In this document: one piece after another, positions 1 through 47,617 of the stretch
Position numbering within the stretch: the stretch's first letter is position 1
How the letters are laid out: every line of letters begins with the position of its first letter
Origin: Alkalibacillus aidingensis
Lineage (GTDB): Bacteria > Bacillota > Bacilli > Bacillales > Alkalibacillaceae
Assembly: GCF_014595945.1 (NCBI RefSeq)
Contig: NZ_JABXWU010000001.1
Location: 930,001-994,000, forward strand
Direction of reading: 5' to 3'
Length of the DNA stretch: 64,000 bases
Position numbers and translations under genes: made by a program
The notes under the pieces: model-generated
Told to the model about the DNA's origin: nothing
What the model saw: only the letters and a program-made list of their open reading frames with translations
Databases searched by the model: none

Positions 1-26
1 GAATGTCCGTGGTAGGATACTTTCAT
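1..26 (-). CDS. ytkL: UPF0173 metal-dependent hydrolase, N-terminal fragment (YtkL-like)
   Basis: Only the first nine codons lie in the window. Read on the minus strand they give MKVSYHGHS, which matches the start I remember for the YtkL/UPF0173 family of metallo-beta-lactamase-fold hydrolases. A TGGAGG ribosome binding site lies just upstream. Two ATG codons are adjacent (27-29 and 24-26); the second has the better spacing (7 nt from GGAGG). The rest of the gene is beyond the left edge. The divergent neighbour is an M24 peptidase. The identification rests on a short peptide plus gene order, so it is tentative. Confidence 0.6.
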
Positions 27-139
27 CATAAAACCTCCATTTTTAAAATTTTCTCAATTAATTACTTCTTCATCATTCATTTATTTCCCTTTTTCAGTTA
101 AGATAACACATAACAAATAAGAATTTTAGAGGTGATTTA

Positions 140-1234
140 ATGAATCATAGAATTGATCAACTAATTAATGAATTAAAACAAAGAAGTATCGACAGCATGT
201 TTATAACTTCAAAGGCAAACATTTTTTATTTTAGTCAGCTTTATGCAGAAGCACATGAACGCCTCATCGCCTTATACATAGACCAAAAAGGAAATCGTGT
301 GTTAGTTGTGCCTGCTCTTGAACTTGAAGACGTTAAAAATACGGGATGGAAAGAAGCGATCATCACCTATTATGACCATGAAGACCCATGGGAGAAATTC
401 AACGAATGGGTTAAGAAAACAGGGTTCACTCCTTCATCAATAGGGATTGAAGAAGAAAGCTTGAATGTTCAACGCTACAAACTCCTACAGAAGCATTTAC
501 CAACTAGTGAATTGGTCGATGGACAACTGTTACTTAACCAGATGAGAGTTATAAAGGATGAATCTGAGGCAAGTATACTACAAGAGGCGGCTAAGTTTGC
601 TGATTTTGGTGTTGAGACGGCTGTCAAGCATATTCAACCTGGCAAGACAGAATTAGAAATTATTGCTCAAGTTGAATACGCCTTAAAGAAAGAAGGCATA
701 CGTCATATGTCATTCTCAACATTAGTTCTTTCTGGAGACAAAACTGCTGCTCCTCATGGAAACCCTAGCACTAAAGTCATTGAATCTGGTGACTTTGTCT
801 TAATGGACCTAGGTGTTATTCATAATGGCTACTGTTCAGACATCACCCGAACCGTAGCAGTAGGGGATATCTCTGATGAACAAAAAGAAATTTACAATAC
901 TGTTCTTAATGCTGAATTAGCTGGATTAGACGCTTGCCAAATAGGGACGCCACTCGGGGAAATTGACCGTGCGGCACGTGATGTCATCGAAAAGGCTGGC
1001 TATGGAGAATATTTTACTCATCGAATTGGACATGGACTAGGTATTGATGTACATGAGTTCCCTTCCATGGCTTCAAACAACCAAGACCCACTGCAAGCTG
1101 GAATGAGCTTTACGATTGAGCCTGGAATCTACCTACCTGGTGCAGGTGGAGTTAGAATTGAAGATGATGTCCTAATGACAAAACAGGGAGCTAAAACGTT
1201 AACTAAATACCCGAAAGAGCTCATTATTTTATAA
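140..1234 (+). CDS. M24 family Xaa-Pro dipeptidase/aminopeptidase
   Basis: A 364-residue cytosolic proline peptidase that would release the N-terminal residue of Xaa-Pro peptides in peptide recycling. The N-terminal half (about 1-130) is the creatinase-like domain and the C-terminal half is the pita-bread metallopeptidase domain. The metal ligands are visible: Asp in LMDLG, Asp in CSDITRT, His in HRIGHGLG, Glu in FTIEPG and Glu in VRIEDD. The start is supported by GAGGTGATTTA just upstream. It is transcribed alone, divergently from the ytkL-like gene. The exact orthologue (YqhT, YkvY or another) cannot be told from sequence alone. Confidence 0.92.
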   Translation: MNHRIDQLINELKQRSIDSMFITSKANIFYFSQLYAEAHERLIALYIDQKGNRVLVVPALELEDVKNTGWKEAIITYYDHEDPWEKFNEWVKKTGFTPSSIGIEEESLNVQRYKLLQKHLPTSELVDGQLLLNQMRVIKDESEASILQEAAKFADFGVETAVKHIQPGKTELEIIAQVEYALKKEGIRHMSFSTLVLSGDKTAAPHGNPSTKVIESGDFVLMDLGVIHNGYCSDITRTVAVGDISDEQKEIYNTVLNAELAGLDACQIGTPLGEIDRAARDVIEKAGYGEYFTHRIGHGLGIDVHEFPSMASNNQDPLQAGMSFTIEPGIYLPGAGGVRIEDDVLMTKQGAKTLTKYPKELIIL

Positions 1235-39866: not shown

Positions 39867-40925
39867 TTAAAGATTCAAAGCTTCCATAAATTGTTCAAAG
39901 GTGGGTATGTCCATTTGTTGCTGTGAATCAGATAAAGCGACTGCAGGGTCAGGATGGACTTCAGCCATAATCCCATCTGCTCCAATAGCTAGAGCTGCTT
40001 TGGCAGCTGGTAATAACAAATCTCTTCTTCCCGTTGAATGAGTAACATCGACCATCACAGGCAAGTGTGTTTCTTGTTTTAATACAGGAACAGCTGTTAT
40101 ATCTAGCGTATTACGAGTTGCTGTTTCATACGTTCTAATACCACGTTCACATAAGATGATATCTCCATTCCCCTGCGAAATGATATACTCAGCTGCATTC
40201 ATAAACTCGTTAATGGTAGCGGCTAGACCTCTTTTTAATAAGATCGGCTTTTCAGATCGACCTGCTTCTTTTAACAACTCAAAGTTTTGCATATTACGGG
40301 CACCGATTTGAATAACGTCCAGATATTGATGAGCCACTTCGATATCTTTCGGGTTCACGATCTCGCTAACTACTTTTAAATCATGTTGGTCCCCCACCTG
40401 ACGAAGAATCTTCAAACCCTCTACACCTAACCCTTGAAAGTCGTAAGGCGACGTTCTAGGTTTAAAAGCTCCACCACGTAAAAGATTAATTCCCTGTTTC
40501 TTTACAGCTTGAGCAACTTCATCAACTTGTTGATACGACTCAATTGAACATGGGCCTACAACCAATTGTTGATGGCCGTTACCCACATCAACATTGTCAA
40601 TAGAAACAACCGTATCAGTCGGCTTCTTCTTGCGTGAAACTAACAATGTTTTACGATAATCATCCTCTTGTAATTCCTTGGCTGCTTTAAAAATCTCTTT
40701 AAATAAATGCTCAATCGTTGAATATTCAAAGGGACCTTGATGTTTTTCAATAATGTGATCCAACATCTCTCTTTCCCTAACTGGGTCATATGCTTTCATC
40801 CCTTGTGATTTTTTAATATCACCTATTTGTTTTACTAATTTTCCTCTTTCATTGATTAATTCTAATATTTTTATATTCACATTATCTAACTCATCTCTTA
40901 ATTGATCCAAATCATAACTACTCAT
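39867..40925 (-). CDS. aroA: Bifunctional chorismate mutase/3-deoxy-7-phosphoheptulonate synthase
   Basis: A 352-residue fusion. An AroQ-type chorismate mutase (about 1-85; [19 protein letters not shown] and VREREMLD) is followed by a type I-beta DAHP synthase (about 95-352; [39 protein letters not shown]). It starts the shikimate pathway, and the mutase domain gives feedback control by chorismate or prephenate, as in Bacillus AroA(G). AGGAGGCG precedes the ATG. It lies upstream of ccpA on the same strand with a gap of 138 nt. Confidence 0.97.
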
Positions 40926-41046: not shown

Positions 41047-41206
41047 GGATTTAGTATATCAATCACATTTACATAGTTTAGTCCTTTAATGCAATCATCT
41101 ACCTTAACCTATAATTATAACGAACGATTAGGAAATTGTCATTAAGTCTATGTAAGAACCACCATATCTCTTATTGAGAACCACAAAATGTCGAGGTGAA
41201 AGGAAC

Positions 41207-43351
41207 ATGACTGATCAATTATTCGCACTGGATATAGGAACAAGAAGCATTGTCGGGATTATTTTACGAAAAGCTGATGATCATTACCAAGTTATTGATA
41301 TGGTGGCCAAAGAGCACCGTGAGCGTTCCATGTTAGATGGTCAAATTCATAATGTGTTAGCTGTTTCTAAATTGATTCAAGAGGTAAAAGAAGAGCTCGA
41401 ATGCAAACACGGTTCCCTAACCCATGTATGTGTAGCTGCTGCCGGTCGCGCACTTAAAACTAAAACTTCCACAGTTGAGGTTGATATTGCCACTCAGCCC
41501 CTTATGAATGAGGATGACATCTTTCACTTAGAGTTAGCTGCAGTACAAGAAGCTCAGTATCAATTAGCCGAAGAAGAACAAGGGGACTCAAGTACCCAGT
41601 ATTATTGTGTTGGGTATTCTGTTTTACATTATTATTTAGATGACCAAAAAATTGGCTCTTTAATCGACCAACAAGGGGAAACAGCTAAAGTTGATATTAT
41701 TGCCACATTTCTACCTAAAGTGGTGGTTGAATCTTTACTTTCGGCATTACAACGAGCTGACTTAGAGATGGAAGCTTTAACACTTGAGCCAATTGCGGCC
41801 ATTCAAGTATTGATTCCTCCTTCTATGCGCCGATTAAATGTCGCGTTAGTCGATATTGGTGCCGGCACAAGTGACATCGCGATTACCAATAAGGGAACAG
41901 TTACAGCTTATGGAATGGTGCCTAAAGCTGGAGATGAGATCACTGAAGCCATTAGCGAACAGTATCTACTAGATTTTCACCAAGCTGAAGAAGCTAAAAA
42001 ACAACTGGTCAGGGATTATTCAATGGAAATAGAGGACATTTTAGGTTTCAAATCTGAAGTTACTATTGAACAAGTCACAGAAGACATCCGTGATTCTATT
42101 GACCAACTGGCAGAAGCAATATGTAAAAAGATACTCCACCTCAATAACCAATCACCAAAAGCTGTTATGTTAGTAGGGGGTGGTAGCTTAACTCCTAATC
42201 TAACATCAAGTATTGCAACCAAATTACAGCTACCTGATCAACGCGTCGCTGTTAGGGGGATTGATGCGATTCAAGGGTTAAAAGGGCATGACCAACTTCC
42301 GATGAGCCCTGAGTTCGTAACTCCAATTGGGATCGCCATCGCAGCTAAGAAGAGCCCCGTCCACTATATAAGCGTGGAGGTTAATGACCGGATGGTTAGA
42401 TTATTTGATGTCAAACAATTAACGATTGGGGACTGCTTATTAGCTGCAGGTTTGGAACTCAAAAAATTATATGGTAAACCAGGAATGGCCATGATGGTTT
42501 ATTTTAATAGTAGAAAAATCACTCTTCCTGGCACATACGGAAAAGCACCAACCATTAAAGTGAATGGTAAGGCTGCCTCCATCCAAGACCCAATCAAACA
42601 CGGAGATAAAATAGAAGTGATCCCAGGAATTGATGGTGAAACACCAAGCTATACAGTTAAAGATGTAGTTGGGGAACAACAAGGTAAAACGATTTGGGTA
42701 ATCGATCAAAAAGTACAAGCTGATTCATTAATTAAAGTTAATGATCAACCAACCCATCTAGACCATCAGCTATTAGATGGAGATCACATTTCCTGGTCAA
42801 ATGTAGTTACTGTTAGAAGCTTTCTAGAAAATAACGGATTTCAGCATGTGATCGAGCAAATGAAGCCTTTTGAAATAACATATAATAATCAGCCACTAAC
42901 CATCTTCCAACAACAAGTTGATTTAACACTTAATGATCAGAAAACAACGTTAGATCAAACATTAGAAGATGGAGATCAATTATCATATCAACTTTTCCGT
43001 TATATTACACTAGATCAACTAGCTGAACGCTTAGACCTTGTTCTTTATACAAACCTAACAATATTTTTCAATAACCAACCTGTTGACATAACGAAGTGGT
43101 CTTATGATATTAAGCGAAACGGACAATCTCTTAATCCTGATGACATCATCTATCCAAATGATGATATTAAAATCAAGCCAAAAGACAGCGAACCATTTAT
43201 CTTTCAGGATATCTTTAGGTTTGTCGAGTTTGATTTAGATGAGGTTAAGGGGAAACGATTTAAACTTTATCGCAATGACGAAGAGGTTGGTTTCTCGGCC
43301 CCCATTCAAGAGGGAGATCAACTAAAAATTGCTTGGATCAGTCATGTTTAG
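41207..43351 (+). CDS. FtsA/PilM-like actin-fold ATPase with repetitive C-terminal half
   Basis: A 714-residue protein. Residues 1-370 have the FtsA/PilM fold: phosphate-1 loop ALDIGTRSIVG at the N-terminus, SHS2-like insert, phosphate-2 loop VDIGAGTSDIAI near 219, and adenosine loop MLVGGGSLTPNL near 330. Residues 370-714 are not found in classical FtsA. They contain about five copies of a loose motif like x-hydrophobic-x-V/L-N-x5-8-L-x2-L/I-x2-G-D-x-I (near 447, 515, 571, 627 and 690), which suggests small beta-grasp-like units. There is no C-terminal amphipathic membrane anchor. ATG at 41207 follows GAGGTGAAAGGAA. It is monocistronic. Function is unknown; a role in envelope organisation is inferred from the ATPase half. 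Confidence 0.85.
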   Translation: MTDQLFALDIGTRSIVGIILRKADDHYQVIDMVAKEHRERSMLDGQIHNVLAVSKLIQEVKEELECKHGSLTHVCVAAAGRALKTKTSTVEVDIATQPLMNEDDIFHLELAAVQEAQYQLAEEEQGDSSTQYYCVGYSVLHYYLDDQKIGSLIDQQGETAKVDIIATFLPKVVVESLLSALQRADLEMEALTLEPIAAIQVLIPPSMRRLNVALVDIGAGTSDIAITNKGTVTAYGMVPKAGDEITEAISEQYLLDFHQAEEAKKQLVRDYSMEIEDILGFKSEVTIEQVTEDIRDSIDQLAEAICKKILHLNNQSPKAVMLVGGGSLTPNLTSSIATKLQLPDQRVAVRGIDAIQGLKGHDQLPMSPEFVTPIGIAIAAKKSPVHYISVEVNDRMVRLFDVKQLTIGDCLLAAGLELKKLYGKPGMAMMVYFNSRKITLPGTYGKAPTIKVNGKAASIQDPIKHGDKIEVIPGIDGETPSYTVKDVVGEQQGKTIWVIDQKVQADSLIKVNDQPTHLDHQLLDGDHISWSNVVTVRSFLENNGFQHVIEQMKPFEITYNNQPLTIFQQQVDLTLNDQKTTLDQTLEDGDQLSYQLFRYITLDQLAERLDLVLYTNLTIFFNNQPVDITKWSYDIKRNGQSLNPDDIIYPNDDIKIKPKDSEPFIFQDIFRFVEFDLDEVKGKRFKLYRNDEEVGFSAPIQEGDQLKIAWISHV

Positions 43352-43431: not shown

Positions 43432-44310
43432 TTATGTGACATGTATCTTCCCTCGATGTGAGCGTTGATACATTTTTTTGATTATTAATTGTAAGATAAA
43501 CACAATCGCGAAAATTAAACCAAGTGCTACTGACATAGCACCAGCAATAGATACATCAAACCAATAGGCGATTGCATAACCAACTACTGACCCTAAAATT
43601 CCTACCATCGCACTGACAGCAATCATAGTACTAAGTCGTTTAGTCATTAAATAGGCTGTCGCACCAGGTACGATCAACATGGTTACAACTAAAATCGAGC
43701 CAACACTTTCGAATGACGCCACAATTGACAAGGAGACCATCCCCATTAATAAATAGTGGATGAACACAACATTAATTCCTAATGCCGTTGCCAAAACTGG
43801 GTCAAATGAACTGATTTTAATTGGTTCGTAAAAGATAATCAATATGACCGTATTAATCACTAATACTGTTCCTAACATCCATACTGCTTGTGGTCCAAGA
43901 TCCACACCAAATAATGTGAGTCGATTCCAAGGAACAAAGGTAATCTCTCCCATAAGCACATGATCAATATCTAAATGGACTTGGCGAGCGTAAATGGAAA
44001 CTAAGAACACTCCTAAGGCAAATAAGCTAGTAAAAACAATTCCTATCGAGGCGTCAGTATGAATCCCTCGATTGTATAAAAACTGTACTAAAAACGCCGT
44101 TAACATACCAATTATTAGCGCACCGATTAACATATAAATTGATGATAAGCTTTGACTGATTAAATATGCTAAAACTATTCCTAGTAACACAGTATGACTA
44201 ATTCCATCTGATAACATGGCCATCTTTCGGATGATTAATAGACAACCAATCGTCCCACAAGTCACCCCTACTAAGGAACCAGTTAATATAATCCACATTT
44301 CATAACTCAT
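43432..44310 (-). CDS. mntD: Manganese ABC transporter permease MntD
   Basis: A 292-residue membrane protein of the ABC-3 family with about eight helices. The motif for ATPase contact, seen as SFDPVLATALGIN near 168, and GSILVVTMLIVPGATAYL near 205 are typical. It is the last gene of mntABCD, starting 1 nt after the mntC stop, and pairs with MntC to form the channel. A hairpin without a T run (about 43391-43426) lies beyond its end. Confidence 0.92.
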   Translation of the reverse strand: MSYEMWIILTGSLVGVTCGTIGCLLIIRKMAMLSDGISHTVLLGIVLAYLISQSLSSIYMLIGALIIGMLTAFLVQFLYNRGIHTDASIGIVFTSLFALGVFLVSIYARQVHLDIDHVLMGEITFVPWNRLTLFGVDLGPQAVWMLGTVLVINTVILIIFYEPIKISSFDPVLATALGINVVFIHYLLMGMVSLSIVASFESVGSILVVTMLIVPGATAYLMTKRLSTMIAVSAMVGILGSVVGYAIAYWFDVSIAGAMSVALGLIFAIVFILQLIIKKMYQRSHRGKIHVT

Positions 44311-45228
44311 CTAGATCACCTTATGCTTTCTTGTGGTTTGTTGGTTCTTATGTGAGCGTCTCAATTTTCTAAATACCCAATTCTTATAAACAATACCTCT
44401 TTTAGGGGCAAATAATAATGATAGGAAGAAAATCGCTGCTTCACATAAGACAATAACAGGTCCAGTCGCCACTCTTAAAGCCAATGTGCTAAAATACGTC
44501 CCCAATAAGCTGGCTATACCACCAAACGTTCCAGCTAATAAAAGCATCACAGATAATTTTTCCGTCCATAATCTTGCTGCAGCTGGTGGAATGATGATCA
44601 TAGCTGTCATAAGTACTACCCCAACTGTTTGGATCCCTATAACAATAGCACCGACTATTAGCAACATTAGTAGATTGTTAATCTTATTATAAGAGAGCCC
44701 CAAGGCTTTTGCGAAGTTGGGATCAAATGTGATCAACTTAAACTCTTTATAAAACAAAACTAAAACAGTGACTAATACTAGAGAAACGATGGAAATAATC
44801 TGTACATCCTGACTTGATAACGATGCAGCTTGCCCGAAAACAAACTCATCTAAGCCACTTTGATTTCCTGCTAAGTTATTGGATATATATGTTAATAATA
44901 CAACCCCAAACCCAAAAAAAACGGATAAAACAACCCCGATTGAAGTATCCTCTTTGAGTTTAGAGTGTTGAACGATATACTGGATACAGTATGTGGCTAT
45001 ATATCCAGCAATTACAGCGCCAATTAATAAATAAATAAGTTCTTTATCTCGAACAACGATAAAGGCAAGACAAACCCCTGGTAATGCTGCATGGGCAACA
45101 GCATCACTGATCAGACTTTGTCTTTTTAACACCGCAAAACAACCAATCATTCCACTTGTAATTCCTAAAATAGTGGTCCCTAAGAGTACCCATTGTAAAT
45201 TTGGATCTTGTAGCCATTCAAACATCAA
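44311..45228 (-). CDS. mntC: Manganese ABC transporter permease MntC
   Basis: A 305-residue ABC-3 family permease with about eight helices. The contact motif TFDPNFAKALGLS near 177 and GVVLMTAMIIIPPAAARLW near 212 are visible, and the tail is basic. It begins 7 nt after the ATPase gene stop and is directly followed by mntD. Confidence 0.92.
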   Translation of the reverse strand: MMFEWLQDPNLQWVLLGTTILGITSGMIGCFAVLKRQSLISDAVAHAALPGVCLAFIVVRDKELIYLLIGAVIAGYIATYCIQYIVQHSKLKEDTSIGVVLSVFFGFGVVLLTYISNNLAGNQSGLDEFVFGQAASLSSQDVQIISIVSLVLVTVLVLFYKEFKLITFDPNFAKALGLSYNKINNLLMLLIVGAIVIGIQTVGVVLMTAMIIIPPAAARLWTEKLSVMLLLAGTFGGIASLLGTYFSTLALRVATGPVIVLCEAAIFFLSLLFAPKRGIVYKNWVFRKLRRSHKNQQTTRKHKVI

Positions 45229-45235
45229 ATCATCC

Positions 45236-45991
45236 TCACGAATGTAATACAGATGGATTGGACTGATTTGTATTTAAAACCTGTAAACTTCCACCGTAAG
45301 TTTGCTGGATATTCTCTAAGGTAAATACTTTCTCAGTTGGACCAGCATGTAAGACCTTTTGATTGAGCAAAATTAACCAATCAAAGTATTCACTAACTGT
45401 TTGCAAGTCATGATGGACCACAATGACTGTTTTACCTTGCTTTTTCATCTCCTCTAGAAGTTTAACGATGGCCTTTTCAGTTGCGGCATCAACACCTGTA
45501 AAAGGTTCATCCATTAAATATATTGGAGAATCTTGTGCTAAAGCTCGCGCTAAAAAGACTCTTTGTTGTTGACCTCCAGAAAGCTCATTAATCTGTCTTT
45601 TCTCATATCCATCCATGCCCACTTTTTTTAAACAACTTTTCGCTGTATCAATATCATCTTTACTATTGCGATGCCATCTTTTTTGCTTTCTATACATACC
45701 CATAAGCACCACATCTAGAACATTTGTTGGGAAATCCCAATCAACTTCTTCTTTCTGTGGCACATACCCGACTTTTTGTCGCTGTTTACGGTAAGAGTCA
45801 CCTAGTATTTTTACATCTCCTGAGACTCTAGGTACGATGTCTAAGATCGATTTAATAAATGTGGACTTACCAGCACCATTTGGGCCGACTACTCCAACAA
45901 GTTTCCCAGTAGGAATGTTGACATTAATATCCCGGAGTACGAGTTGTTTTTGATAAGCTACTGAGACATCCTGCAATTCAATAGCATTCAT
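45236..45991 (-). CDS. mntB: Manganese ABC transporter ATP-binding protein MntB
   Basis: A 251-residue ABC ATPase. Walker A is GPNGAGKST near 37, the signature is LSGGQQQRVFLARAL near 137, Walker B is IYLMDEPFTGVD near 160, and the switch histidine is in VVHHDL near 197. It powers the importer with MntCD. It lies 21 nt after the binding-protein gene. Confidence 0.95.
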   Translation of the reverse strand: MNAIELQDVSVAYQKQLVLRDINVNIPTGKLVGVVGPNGAGKSTFIKSILDIVPRVSGDVKILGDSYRKQRQKVGYVPQKEEVDWDFPTNVLDVVLMGMYRKQKRWHRNSKDDIDTAKSCLKKVGMDGYEKRQINELSGGQQQRVFLARALAQDSPIYLMDEPFTGVDAATEKAIVKLLEEMKKQGKTVIVVHHDLQTVSEYFDWLILLNQKVLHAGPTEKVFTLENIQQTYGGSLQVLNTNQSNPSVLHS

Positions 45992-46012
45992 AAGATCCCT
46001 TCTTTTTTCAGA

Positions 46013-46942
46013 TTATTTTAATGATGAAACAATGACATCAATATTATGTTTAAACATGCCAATATAGGTACCTTGCTCTGTACCTTCTTCACCCATAGCA
46101 TCAGAGAATAACTCCCCACCAATAGTCACTTCTTGGCCTCTTCTTTCTGCTCCTTCAATGACTGATTCCATAGCACGCTCTGACACACTACTTTCAGTAA
46201 AGACAGCCTTGACTTCGTGATCAACTAATACAGAAACAATGTCCTGAATATCAGCCACGCCATAATCAGAATCTGTACTTAACCCTTGTATTCCAATGAC
46301 TTCAAAGTCAAATGCAGTTGCAAAATACCCAAAAGCATCGTGAGCTGTAACTAGTATACGACTTTCATCAGGAATTGTTGCAAGTTCATCTTCAGCATAC
46401 GTTTTTAATTCTTCTAACTCTTCTTGATAATTTTCCGCATTTTCCCTAAAGATTTCCTCATTCTCTGGTGAAAATTCACTCAATTCATCAGCAATGTAGT
46501 TAACAACAAGAGCCCATAAATCTAAATCAAACCAAATATGGGGATCTACCTCATTTGGATTTTCCATATCCTGCTGCAGTTGGTCGTCTGGAAGACCATT
46601 AGCTACAGCTTTTGTTGGTTTTTCACTATCTATTTGTTCTAGTATATCACCCATATTGCCTTCTAAATGCAACCCATTATAAAAAATCATATCCGCATTT
46701 CCGAGTTTACGAATATCACTTTGAGTTGCCTGATATAAGTGTGGGTCAACTCCAGGCCCCATTAGTGCCTCCACTTCTACTAAGTCCCCACCAACATTCG
46801 TCACTGCATCTGCAATTTGGCCCGTTGTTGTTGTAATAACAATTTCACCATTTTGTCCTTTTCCATTATTCTCACCACTACCACAAGCAGCCAAGAACAG
46901 GATCATCACAATGGCAAACATCATCATAAACTTTTTCACCAA
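46013..46942 (-). CDS. mntA: Manganese-binding lipoprotein MntA
   Basis: A 309-residue cluster A-I metal-binding protein. The signal peptide ends in the lipobox LAAC (near residue 20). Metal-ligand histidines are in GVDPHLYQ near 74, VDPHIWFD near 124 and TAHDAFGYF near 190, plus an acidic ligand near the C-terminus. The start is TTG at 46942 or GTG at 46939, after AAAGGAAAG; the two cannot be separated by spacing. It heads mntABCD. Family members carry Mn or Zn; the adjacent MntR and MntR-like boxes favour manganese. Confidence 0.92.
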   Translation of the reverse strand: MVKKFMMMFAIVMILFLAACGSGENNGKGQNGEIVITTTTGQIADAVTNVGGDLVEVEALMGPGVDPHLYQATQSDIRKLGNADMIFYNGLHLEGNMGDILEQIDSEKPTKAVANGLPDDQLQQDMENPNEVDPHIWFDLDLWALVVNYIADELSEFSPENEEIFRENAENYQEELEELKTYAEDELATIPDESRILVTAHDAFGYFATAFDFEVIGIQGLSTDSDYGVADIQDIVSVLVDHEVKAVFTESSVSERAMESVIEGAERRGQEVTIGGELFSDAMGEEGTEQGTYIGMFKHNIDVIVSSLK

Positions 46943-46970
46943 TCATCTTTCCTTTCTGTCATCTCAAAAG

Positions 46971-46985
46971 TTGACCTAAGGCAAA
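46971..46985 (-). promoter_or_regulatory. MntR-box-like site proximal to mntA
   Basis: TTGACCTAAGGCAAA is a near palindrome resembling the MntR operator TTTGCCTTAAGGAAA. It lies about 30 nt upstream of mntA. Confidence 0.6.
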
Positions 46986-47041
46986 TTCTTAATTAAAAAA
47001 ATCTATCTTATGTTTATGTCACTCATTTTTAATGGTTACAC

Positions 47042-47060
47042 TTTTTGCCCTCAGGCAAAT
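47042..47060. promoter_or_regulatory. MntR-box-like palindrome between mntA and mntR
   Basis: TTTTTGCCCTCAGGCAAAT contains the perfect arms TTTGCC and GGCAAA with a 4-nt centre, close to the MntR operator. It lies about 100 nt upstream of mntA and 130 nt upstream of mntR. Confidence 0.7.
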
Positions 47061-47191
47061 TTATTTGCATAAGTAAAATTTAATACAAATGATGTGAATT
47101 GTCAATATCTTTAAATCTGTCCTATTAATTCTTTTTCAATCAGTCATAATTTGATAAAATAAGGTGTAATCAACTTTTTCGGAGGTAAGAC

Positions 47192-47617
47192 ATGCCAACT
47201 CCAAGTATGGAAGATTATATTGAACAAATTTATATCTTAATTGATCAAAAAGGCTACGCGCGTGCCTCAGATATAGCTGAAAGGTTATCAGTTCACCCTT
47301 CATCCGTTACAAAGATGGTAAAAAAACTTGATCAAATGGACTACCTTCATTACGAAAAGTATCGTGGGTTAGTCCTGACTGATAAAGGAAAGAAGATTGG
47401 CAAAAGGCTTGTATATCGTCATGAGCTTCTTGAACAGTTTTTGGCCATTATCGGTACCGAAGAGCATAGTATCTATGAGGAAGTTGAGGGGATTGAACAT
47501 CATTTAAGCTGGGATAGTATATTCAGAATTGGTGATCTGGTCGAATACTTCCAAGAGGATCCAGAGCGTCTAAAAGCCTTAGAAAAGGTCCAAAAACGAA
47601 ACAGTAATCAAGATTAA
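47192..47617 (+). CDS. mntR: Manganese-responsive regulator MntR
   Basis: A 141-residue DtxR-family repressor of Mn uptake. The winged helix spans about 1-70. All metal ligands known for B. subtilis MntR are at the same positions here: Asp8, Glu11, His77, Glu99, Glu102 and His103. The length matches (142 in B. subtilis). It is divergent from mntABCD, with two MntR-like boxes between. GGAGGTAAG precedes the ATG. Confidence 0.97.

Follow-up and report, generated by a model that had tools for sequence, protein, structure and literature searches.

FtsA is among the best-studied bacterial actins. In the 64,000-nucleotide stretch of Alkalibacillus aidingensis DNA analyzed here (the window), one gene encodes a protein composed of an FtsA-type actin head (residues 1-384) followed by a 330-aa tail, which raises the questions of whether it is a second FtsA and what its tail consists of. 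The open reading frame is intact on the + strand, from an ATG at 41207 to a stop codon at 43351 (714 aa). The motif AGGTG was found 11 bases 5' of this ATG, and an alternative start in the same frame (TTG at 41174) would yield a protein of 725 aa. Pfam matches in the 714-aa protein were to PilM_2 (residues 8-344), FtsA (213-372), MreB_Mbl and, within the tail, ThiS (450-475).

An FtsA-type actin head

The gene and the elements of its head are located as follows.

41207 to 43351, + strand: whole gene, 714 aa plus stop (ORF, translation, family membership)
41207 to 42358, + strand: actin head of FtsA type (residues 1-384), bearing a subdomain insertion in its 1C region (VIA-align, Pfam PilM_2 and FtsA)
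41231 to 41242, + strand: phosphate-1 loop DIGT, residues 9-12 (invariant in 79 of 79 homologues)
41852 to 41875, + strand: phosphate-2 loop DIGAGTSD, residues 216-223 (invariant in the 79 homologues except I217, at least 90%)
42095 to 42097, + strand: residue 297 (Ser), in the column of canonical FtsA's invariant Arg (head alignment)
42176 to 42187, + strand: adenosine loop GGGS, residues 324-327 (in the 79 homologues, G324-G326 are invariant and S327 is at least 90%)

An earlier reading of the sequence alone (hereafter, the sequence-only reading) had assigned all three FtsA/PilM nucleotide loops to this protein. This holds for DIGT, DIGAGTSD, and GGGS alike, since each of their residues is invariant or at least 90% conserved in the alignment of 79 homologues (A2), from which we left out L116 (the motif used was in none of its frames) and L128 (a broken frame of 608 aa).

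Comparison of the head with known structures by VIA-align revealed that FtsA is the best fold match, with Z scores of 31.4-34.8, 346-364 residues aligned, and TM-scores on the target of 0.75-0.83. The protein thus shares with FtsA the actin fold with its inserted 1C subdomain as well as the nucleotide loops, and PilM structures match nearly as well (Z 25.9-31.0). Lower scores were obtained for EutJ (25.4) and MreB (~23). MreB has the actin fold in common with the head, and PF06723 lies just above its gathering threshold (30.4 versus 27 bits), but the long protein belongs to a separate clade, and the NCBIfam mreB models give it only 20-26 bits against cut-offs of 293-515. Among 27 phylum-wide sequences, the majority residue averages 67% in the head, with 80 invariant positions, versus 45% in the tail, with 9, the best-kept tail parts being its first domain and its last helix-strand unit. 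Judged from this conservation, the head may act as the engine and the variable tail as the docking part.

A phylum-wide family apart from FtsA and PilM

Rather than a local oddity, this is a common, old family: full-length relatives occur in 65 of 100 related genomes, and 215 of the 398 genomes sampled across the phylum carry the long protein. Scanning genome contigs with the single protein found no relative; the profile scan found matches in at least 574 of 597 stretches, and the best 80 loci were kept. Among open-licence papers in PMC, no description of the family was found. An FtsA relative carried by roughly one in two genomes of this sample seems to be without a described role. The long protein may often carry a plain FtsA annotation, which would confuse surveys of division genes, chiefly where it is the sole FtsA-like protein.

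In a tree of heads, from which L197 was omitted (wrong frame), all 22 long rows cluster together with support 96/95, a grouping recovered in 95% of 200 bootstrap trees. The separate clade predicted by the sequence-only reading was thereby recovered, and it stands apart from FtsA, PilM, and MreB, with bootstrap values that are not fully settled. On these sequence grounds, the long protein is a member of a distinct, phylum-wide actin-like family within the FtsA/PilM superfamily. Two rows fell outside their own groups, L184 among the FtsA rows and L194 among those of PilM. L184 (G275:C1:2062014-2062844) is a third FtsA-like gene, with a frame of 423 aa and 114 bits to TIGR01174, that lies outside FtsA, PilM, and the long family.

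The genome of A. aidingensis also encodes a canonical FtsA (TIGR01174, 401.2 bits; PF02491 SHS2_FTSA, 101.1 bits), whose gene lies between a DivIB-like frame and ftsZ. The latter adjoins it at C1:216079, and the window that holds the long gene starts at C1:930001. The long protein is thus not the only FtsA of this cell, and together with the breadth of the family, this canonical FtsA also rejects a spurious fusion. Unlike FtsA, the long protein is encoded outside the dcw cluster, carries the 330-aa tail, and reaches only 88.5 bits to TIGR01174, for which the NCBIfam cut-off is 175.85. PF02491 has no match in it (E 1) and does not appear in the family listing of 27 members (E 0.01). In addition, it has no C-terminal amphipathic membrane helix. 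The sequence-only reading had noted the missing helix, and both structural models indeed finish in a beta strand followed by a few residues.

A further difference concerns subdomain 2B. The 2B-domain Arg of FtsA contacts the FtsZ tail, and its column, which we take to be R300 in E. coli and R301 in T. maritima, holds Ser297 in the long protein. Arg occupies this column in 20 of 21 canonical FtsA rows (the other row is a gap, hence 20 of 20 alignable) versus none of the 22 long rows, in a comparison that includes rows L181-L184. It is likewise absent from the family alignments A1 (0 of 27) and A2 (0 of 79). PMC4281207 describes strands S12-S13 in subdomain 2B as required for FtsZ. PMC5832921 describes ATP-dependent polymerization of FtsA and its membrane attachment through the C-terminal helix. 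Given that the amphipathic anchor, the SHS2_FTSA signature, and the 2B Arg are all missing, the long protein is probably not a membrane tether for FtsZ.

The sequence-only reading went on to propose a second, FtsA-derived scaffold in the cell envelope. The word "second" is right for the source genome and does not always hold across the family, because the long protein occurs with no FtsA above the cut-off in 27 of 149 genomes; the scaffold itself is a guess. Scoring 149 genomes against the TIGR01174 cut-off, we found both proteins in 60, canonical FtsA alone in 31, the long protein alone in 27, and neither in 31, where genomes lacking a long-family match were scored for FtsA on few candidates. 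Neither an FtsA stand-in nor a strict FtsA partner fits this split.

These counts bear on the idea that the long protein is a second true FtsA that binds FtsZ, acts at the division site in place of FtsA or alongside it, and uses its tail as a new divisome anchor. We consider this unlikely, even though its head is best matched by FtsA structures, it could be a stand-in in the 27 genomes, and the wall gene murC belongs to its Bacillales neighborhood. The TIGR01174 score falls far short of the cut-off, the Arg kept in every alignable FtsA is lost in 22 of 22 long rows, and the anchor helix is absent. Moreover, the absence of FtsA needs no replacement, as judged from the 31 genomes with neither protein, and among the TIGR01174 matches listed, at least 3 of the 27 long-only genomes (G161, G234, and G263) carry a frame of FtsA size that falls slightly short of the cut-off. 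In the 31 genomes with neither protein (e.g., G100, G105, and G107), FtsZ would have to be tethered otherwise.

The protein could instead be a PilM-like trans-envelope adaptor, the head holding the cytoplasmic peptide of a membrane protein and the tail binding a motor or substrate. Of the Pfam families matched by the query, PilM_2 ranks first (PF11104, 50.7 bits versus a gathering threshold of 27); it matches 27 of 27 members, and the head fold is similar. However, TIGR01175 gives 73.2 bits against an NCBIfam cut-off of 133, the clade is separate from 18 of 19 PilM rows, and PilM has no such tail. No pilM-family match at 1e-25 was found in the genome itself and no pilus operon or pilus gene beside the gene in the window, all of which makes this explanation quite improbable. 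A cytosolic ATP-driven enzyme helper of Hsp70 or reactivase type, with a nucleotide head and a substrate-holding, beta-rich tail, would match the layout and length of Hsp70 and the weak similarity that Pfam reports between 22 of 27 members and diol dehydratase reactivase, but Hsp70 folds align over only ~265-280 residues versus 346-364 for FtsA, and the tail is beta-grasp rather than the Hsp70 substrate fold, so that we regard it as very unlikely.

Sporulation does not provide a rule for the family either. Within the set of 149 genomes, SpoVAD occurs in 82 of the 87 with the long protein (it is missing from G128, G175, G180, G240, and G272) and in 48 of the 62 without it, a weak association that is not corrected for descent. 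Separately, loci of the GTDB family labeled f79 (L145, L040, L044, L047, L050, L052, and L060) have a putative long open-frame extension before the head. In L145, this extension is rich in Lys, Ala, and Thr and resembles histone-H1-type tails.

Beta-grasp units of the tail

About five repeats had been proposed for the tail, and they are real. It holds five copies of a unit with the pattern N-G...G-D-x-I (in full, N-G...I-x-x-G-D-x-I), in segments that begin near residues 446, 505, 568, 631, and 682. The unit Asn residues are at 453, 512, 576, 638, and 690, so that the positions first given (447, 515, 571, 627, and 690) were accurate to within ~11 residues. When unit profiles, each built from 79 homologues, were compared by HHalign, all 10 pairs matched, with probabilities of 97.3-98.4, and mean cross-scores are 5.0 to 24.5 bits for the real segments versus -1.6 to -0.4 for shuffled ones. 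Unit number varies among 161 distinct sequences: 126 have five, 18 four, 13 three, 3 six, and 1 two, with median spacings of 60, 63, 63, and then 51 in the five-unit sequences. A single non-repetitive domain spanning residues 370-714 is therefore rejected by the HHalign pairs and the unit scan of the family, as well as by both structural models. The tail is also found together with the head. In 61 genomes, the tail profile matched exactly the 36 with a head match, each listed match sits in an open frame of at least 576 aa, and no free-standing tail protein was detected; nor was one found in the genome of A. aidingensis, where the only further match had an E value of 0.26.

AlphaFold models were obtained for the full-length protein (pLDDT 85.9, pTM 0.60) and for the tail alone (pLDDT 91.2, pTM 0.60), and with a pTM of just 0.60 in both, the spatial order of the domains is unsure. 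The elements that they contain are given below with the evidence for each.

42362 to 42409, + strand: hairpin 0 (residues 386-401) of D1 (models; D1 spanned)
42425 to 42469, + strand: helices (407-421) of D1 (models, structural match)
42491 to 42526, + strand: hairpin 1 (429-440), given to D2 though within the D1 sequence (models; coupling 431-528)
42551 to 42622, + strand: strands b3-b5 (449-472) of D1, repeat unit 1 (models, HHalign, Pfam ThiS 450-475)
42656 to 42670, + strand: helix (484-488) of D2 (models)
42686 to 42721, + strand: hairpin 2 (494-505), given to D3 (models; assignment by analogy)
42728 to 42799, + strand: strands b3-b5 (508-531) of D2, repeat unit 2 (models, HHalign)
42812 to 42859, + strand: helices (536-551) of D3 (models)
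42869 to 42904, + strand: hairpin 3 (555-566) of D4 (models; D4 spanned, model 174..283)
42917 to 42994, + strand: strands b3-b5 (571-596) of D3, repeat unit 3 (models, HHalign)
43010 to 43030, + strand: helix (602-608) of D4 (models, structural match)
43046 to 43099, + strand: hairpin 4 (614-631) of D5 (models; D5 spanned)
43103 to 43180, + strand: strands b3-b5 (633-658) of D4, repeat unit 4 (models, HHalign, structural match)
43202 to 43246, + strand: helices (666-680) of D5, with PFIFQDIFR just before and inside (models, conservation)
43253 to 43342, + strand: strands b3-b5 (683-712) of D5, repeat unit 5, hairpin-free (models, HHalign, structural match)

The small beta-grasp or ThiS-like units suggested by the sequence-only reading are borne out by fold matches. 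Foldseek returned 4 matches to the tail at E 0.001 or better, all of them linear ubiquitin or bacterial multi-ubiquitin, with poor global TM-scores (0.15-0.24). In VIA-align, single domains of ThiS, TtuB, Mth1743, and SAMP1 gave Z scores of 8.0-9.0 (best match: Z 9.0, rmsd 2.0, 66 aligned), and just 11 of 998 aligned chains reached Z 8 against the tail; two displayed rows at Z 7-9, haptocorrin and transcobalamin, are functionally unrelated. For these modeled units, such scores are modest, as may be expected of domains of 60-90 residues. Searched by sequence against the PDB, the tail had no significant match (best E 0.028), and among 27 members, Pfam recognized ThiS in 17 and DUF348 in 1. The units thus share their fold with the ThiS, TGS, Ub-Mut7C, and DUF348 families and with bacterial multi-ubiquitin (Bub) proteins but differ from ThiS- and ubiquitin-type proteins in that they appear interlocked and are fused to an actin-like head. 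The C-terminal Gly-Gly of the ThiS sulfur carrier is absent; the protein ends in WISHV, with no GG after any unit.

A complete beta-grasp domain consists of a hairpin, a helix, and strands b3-b5, in that order. The modeled tail opens with a hairpin and a helix, continues with hairpin, b3-b5, and helix in turn, and closes with b3-b5 directly after the final helix, for a tally of five hairpins, five helical segments, and five b3-b5 pairs, with zero left over. For five whole domains to form without leftover, hairpin n+1 must sit between the helix and b3-b5 of domain n. We therefore consider it likely from the models that the tail comprises five apparently interlocked beta-grasp domains, the hairpin of each unit lying within the sequence of the preceding one. 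The sequence-only reading was thus right about the repetition and the fold and less so about the arrangement, given that the units do not appear to be strung one after another.

Structural matches span D1, D4, and D5. At D4, ThiS-type domains of 64-71 residues extend over 105-113 model residues (model 171..283), of which 57-66 are aligned, and at D1, domains of 71-89 residues span 85-93 model residues with 60-66 aligned (model 7..96). Skipping of foreign segments would be expected to give such wide spans with few aligned residues. A span was likewise obtained for D5 (model 232..334), into which no hairpin is inserted, and the shorter last spacing of 51 is expected where the final unit lacks an insert. 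D2 and D3 were not spanned by VIA-align matches, and both are assigned by analogy. Coupling analysis of the tail, which is noisy with 143 sequences, gave a mixed result for interlocking. The top coupling, 431-528, links hairpin 1 to b5 of unit 2 and favors it, and hairpins 0 and 2 couple preferentially to their interlocked partners (3.1 and 4.2). Against it, the coupling of hairpin 3 to b5 of unit 3, as in a local arrangement (z 4.9), exceeds that to unit 4 (3.1), whereas hairpin 4 has no preference (2.7 and 2.7) and peaks on unit 3 (4.5). If true, an interlocked tail would be an unusual way to make a rigid rod from ubiquitin-like folds.

The aromatic segment PFIFQDIFR (43199-43228), before and in the last helix, is kept in Bacillales rows and diverged in clostridial ones, and it could be a binding patch.

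Proposed role and genomic setting

Among the bacterial actins of the FtsA/PilM branch, the long protein is a new variant whose tail is unusual. The role that we favor, and to which we give an even chance, is that of an ATP-switched, actin-like adaptor of FtsA type with an interlocked beta-grasp rod that docks partners, and probably not that of an FtsZ-membrane tether. The head, with its three conserved nucleotide loops, would bind ATP and may assemble into actin-like protofilaments. PMC7613929 describes antiparallel double filaments of FtsA formed via IC, binding of an FtsN cytoplasmic peptide in the IA-IC cleft of FtsA, and binding of PilN in a cleft of PilM near that FtsN-type site. By analogy with FtsA-FtsN or PilM-PilN, the head may take the short peptide of a partner in a cleft near subdomain 1C. 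The woven domains, with hairpin n+1 between the helix and last strands of domain n, are predicted to make the rod stiff and jointless. In place of the FtsA membrane helix, this rod would reach out and dock or space one or more partners, and ATP state together with assembly may switch the docking by the tail. As a whole, we infer a mechanism that is evenly balanced at best. A bolder version, which is doubtful, would make the protein a new class of actin-like cytoskeletal adaptor, old and present across much of the phylum, independent of FtsZ and of a membrane helix, in which continuous rods of interlocked beta-grasp domains, an architecture without earlier description, form a comb of docking arms along a head filament.

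The sequence-only reading had seen no operon partner for the gene. Indeed, both flanking genes are on the opposite strand, as are the conserved neighbors in related Bacillales loci. One of these is aroA.

39867 to 40925, - strand: aroA (DAHP synthase/chorismate mutase), divergent conserved neighbor (NF009239 above cut-off; 78 of 80 related loci)

Among the best 80 loci of the at least 574 stretches matched, aroA lies on the opposite strand in 78 of the 78 that have it, and ccpA, always on the opposite strand, was seen in 79. Other neighbors in these 80 loci are a ytxJ-like gene (43), the 48050-like frame (49), the 48467-like frame (69), and murC (68); we take the 48050 frame of the window to be ytxH, by its position, and the 48467 frame to be ytxG. 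NCBIfam confirmed AroA, CcpA, MotP, YtxJ, MntR, and MurC among the genes of the window itself.

In clostridial genomes, no conserved operon was found, the commonest neighbor cluster occurring in 8 of 20 loci (L162 is without an intact frame). From its sequence, this cluster reads as a CheR-type methyltransferase, and at L149-L155, the gene follows a cluster that reads as heme biosynthesis plus a CheR-like methyltransferase. Since Bacillales and clostridial loci have no gene neighbor in common, nothing outside the protein indicates the process that it serves.

Of 35 related genomes lacking the long gene, 20 from Bacillales were examined, and aroA was found in all 20. In 18 of these, a ytxJ- or ytxH-like gene lies near aroA with no trace of the long gene, which fits loss at a fixed site; the other two (L242 and L244) have no known neighbor beside aroA. 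Because the neighbor block persists, lineages that kept the gene are directly comparable with those that lost it.

In the window, a Mn/Zn-type metal ABC transporter operon (members below NCBIfam cut-offs) and MntR (above cut-off) occupy 43432-47617, between the long gene and the ytxJ block. No mntC, mntB, or substrate-binding match was seen beside the gene in the best 80 related loci. Two gene-less genomes of the same family (L225 and L226) carry an MntR homologue at the same place.
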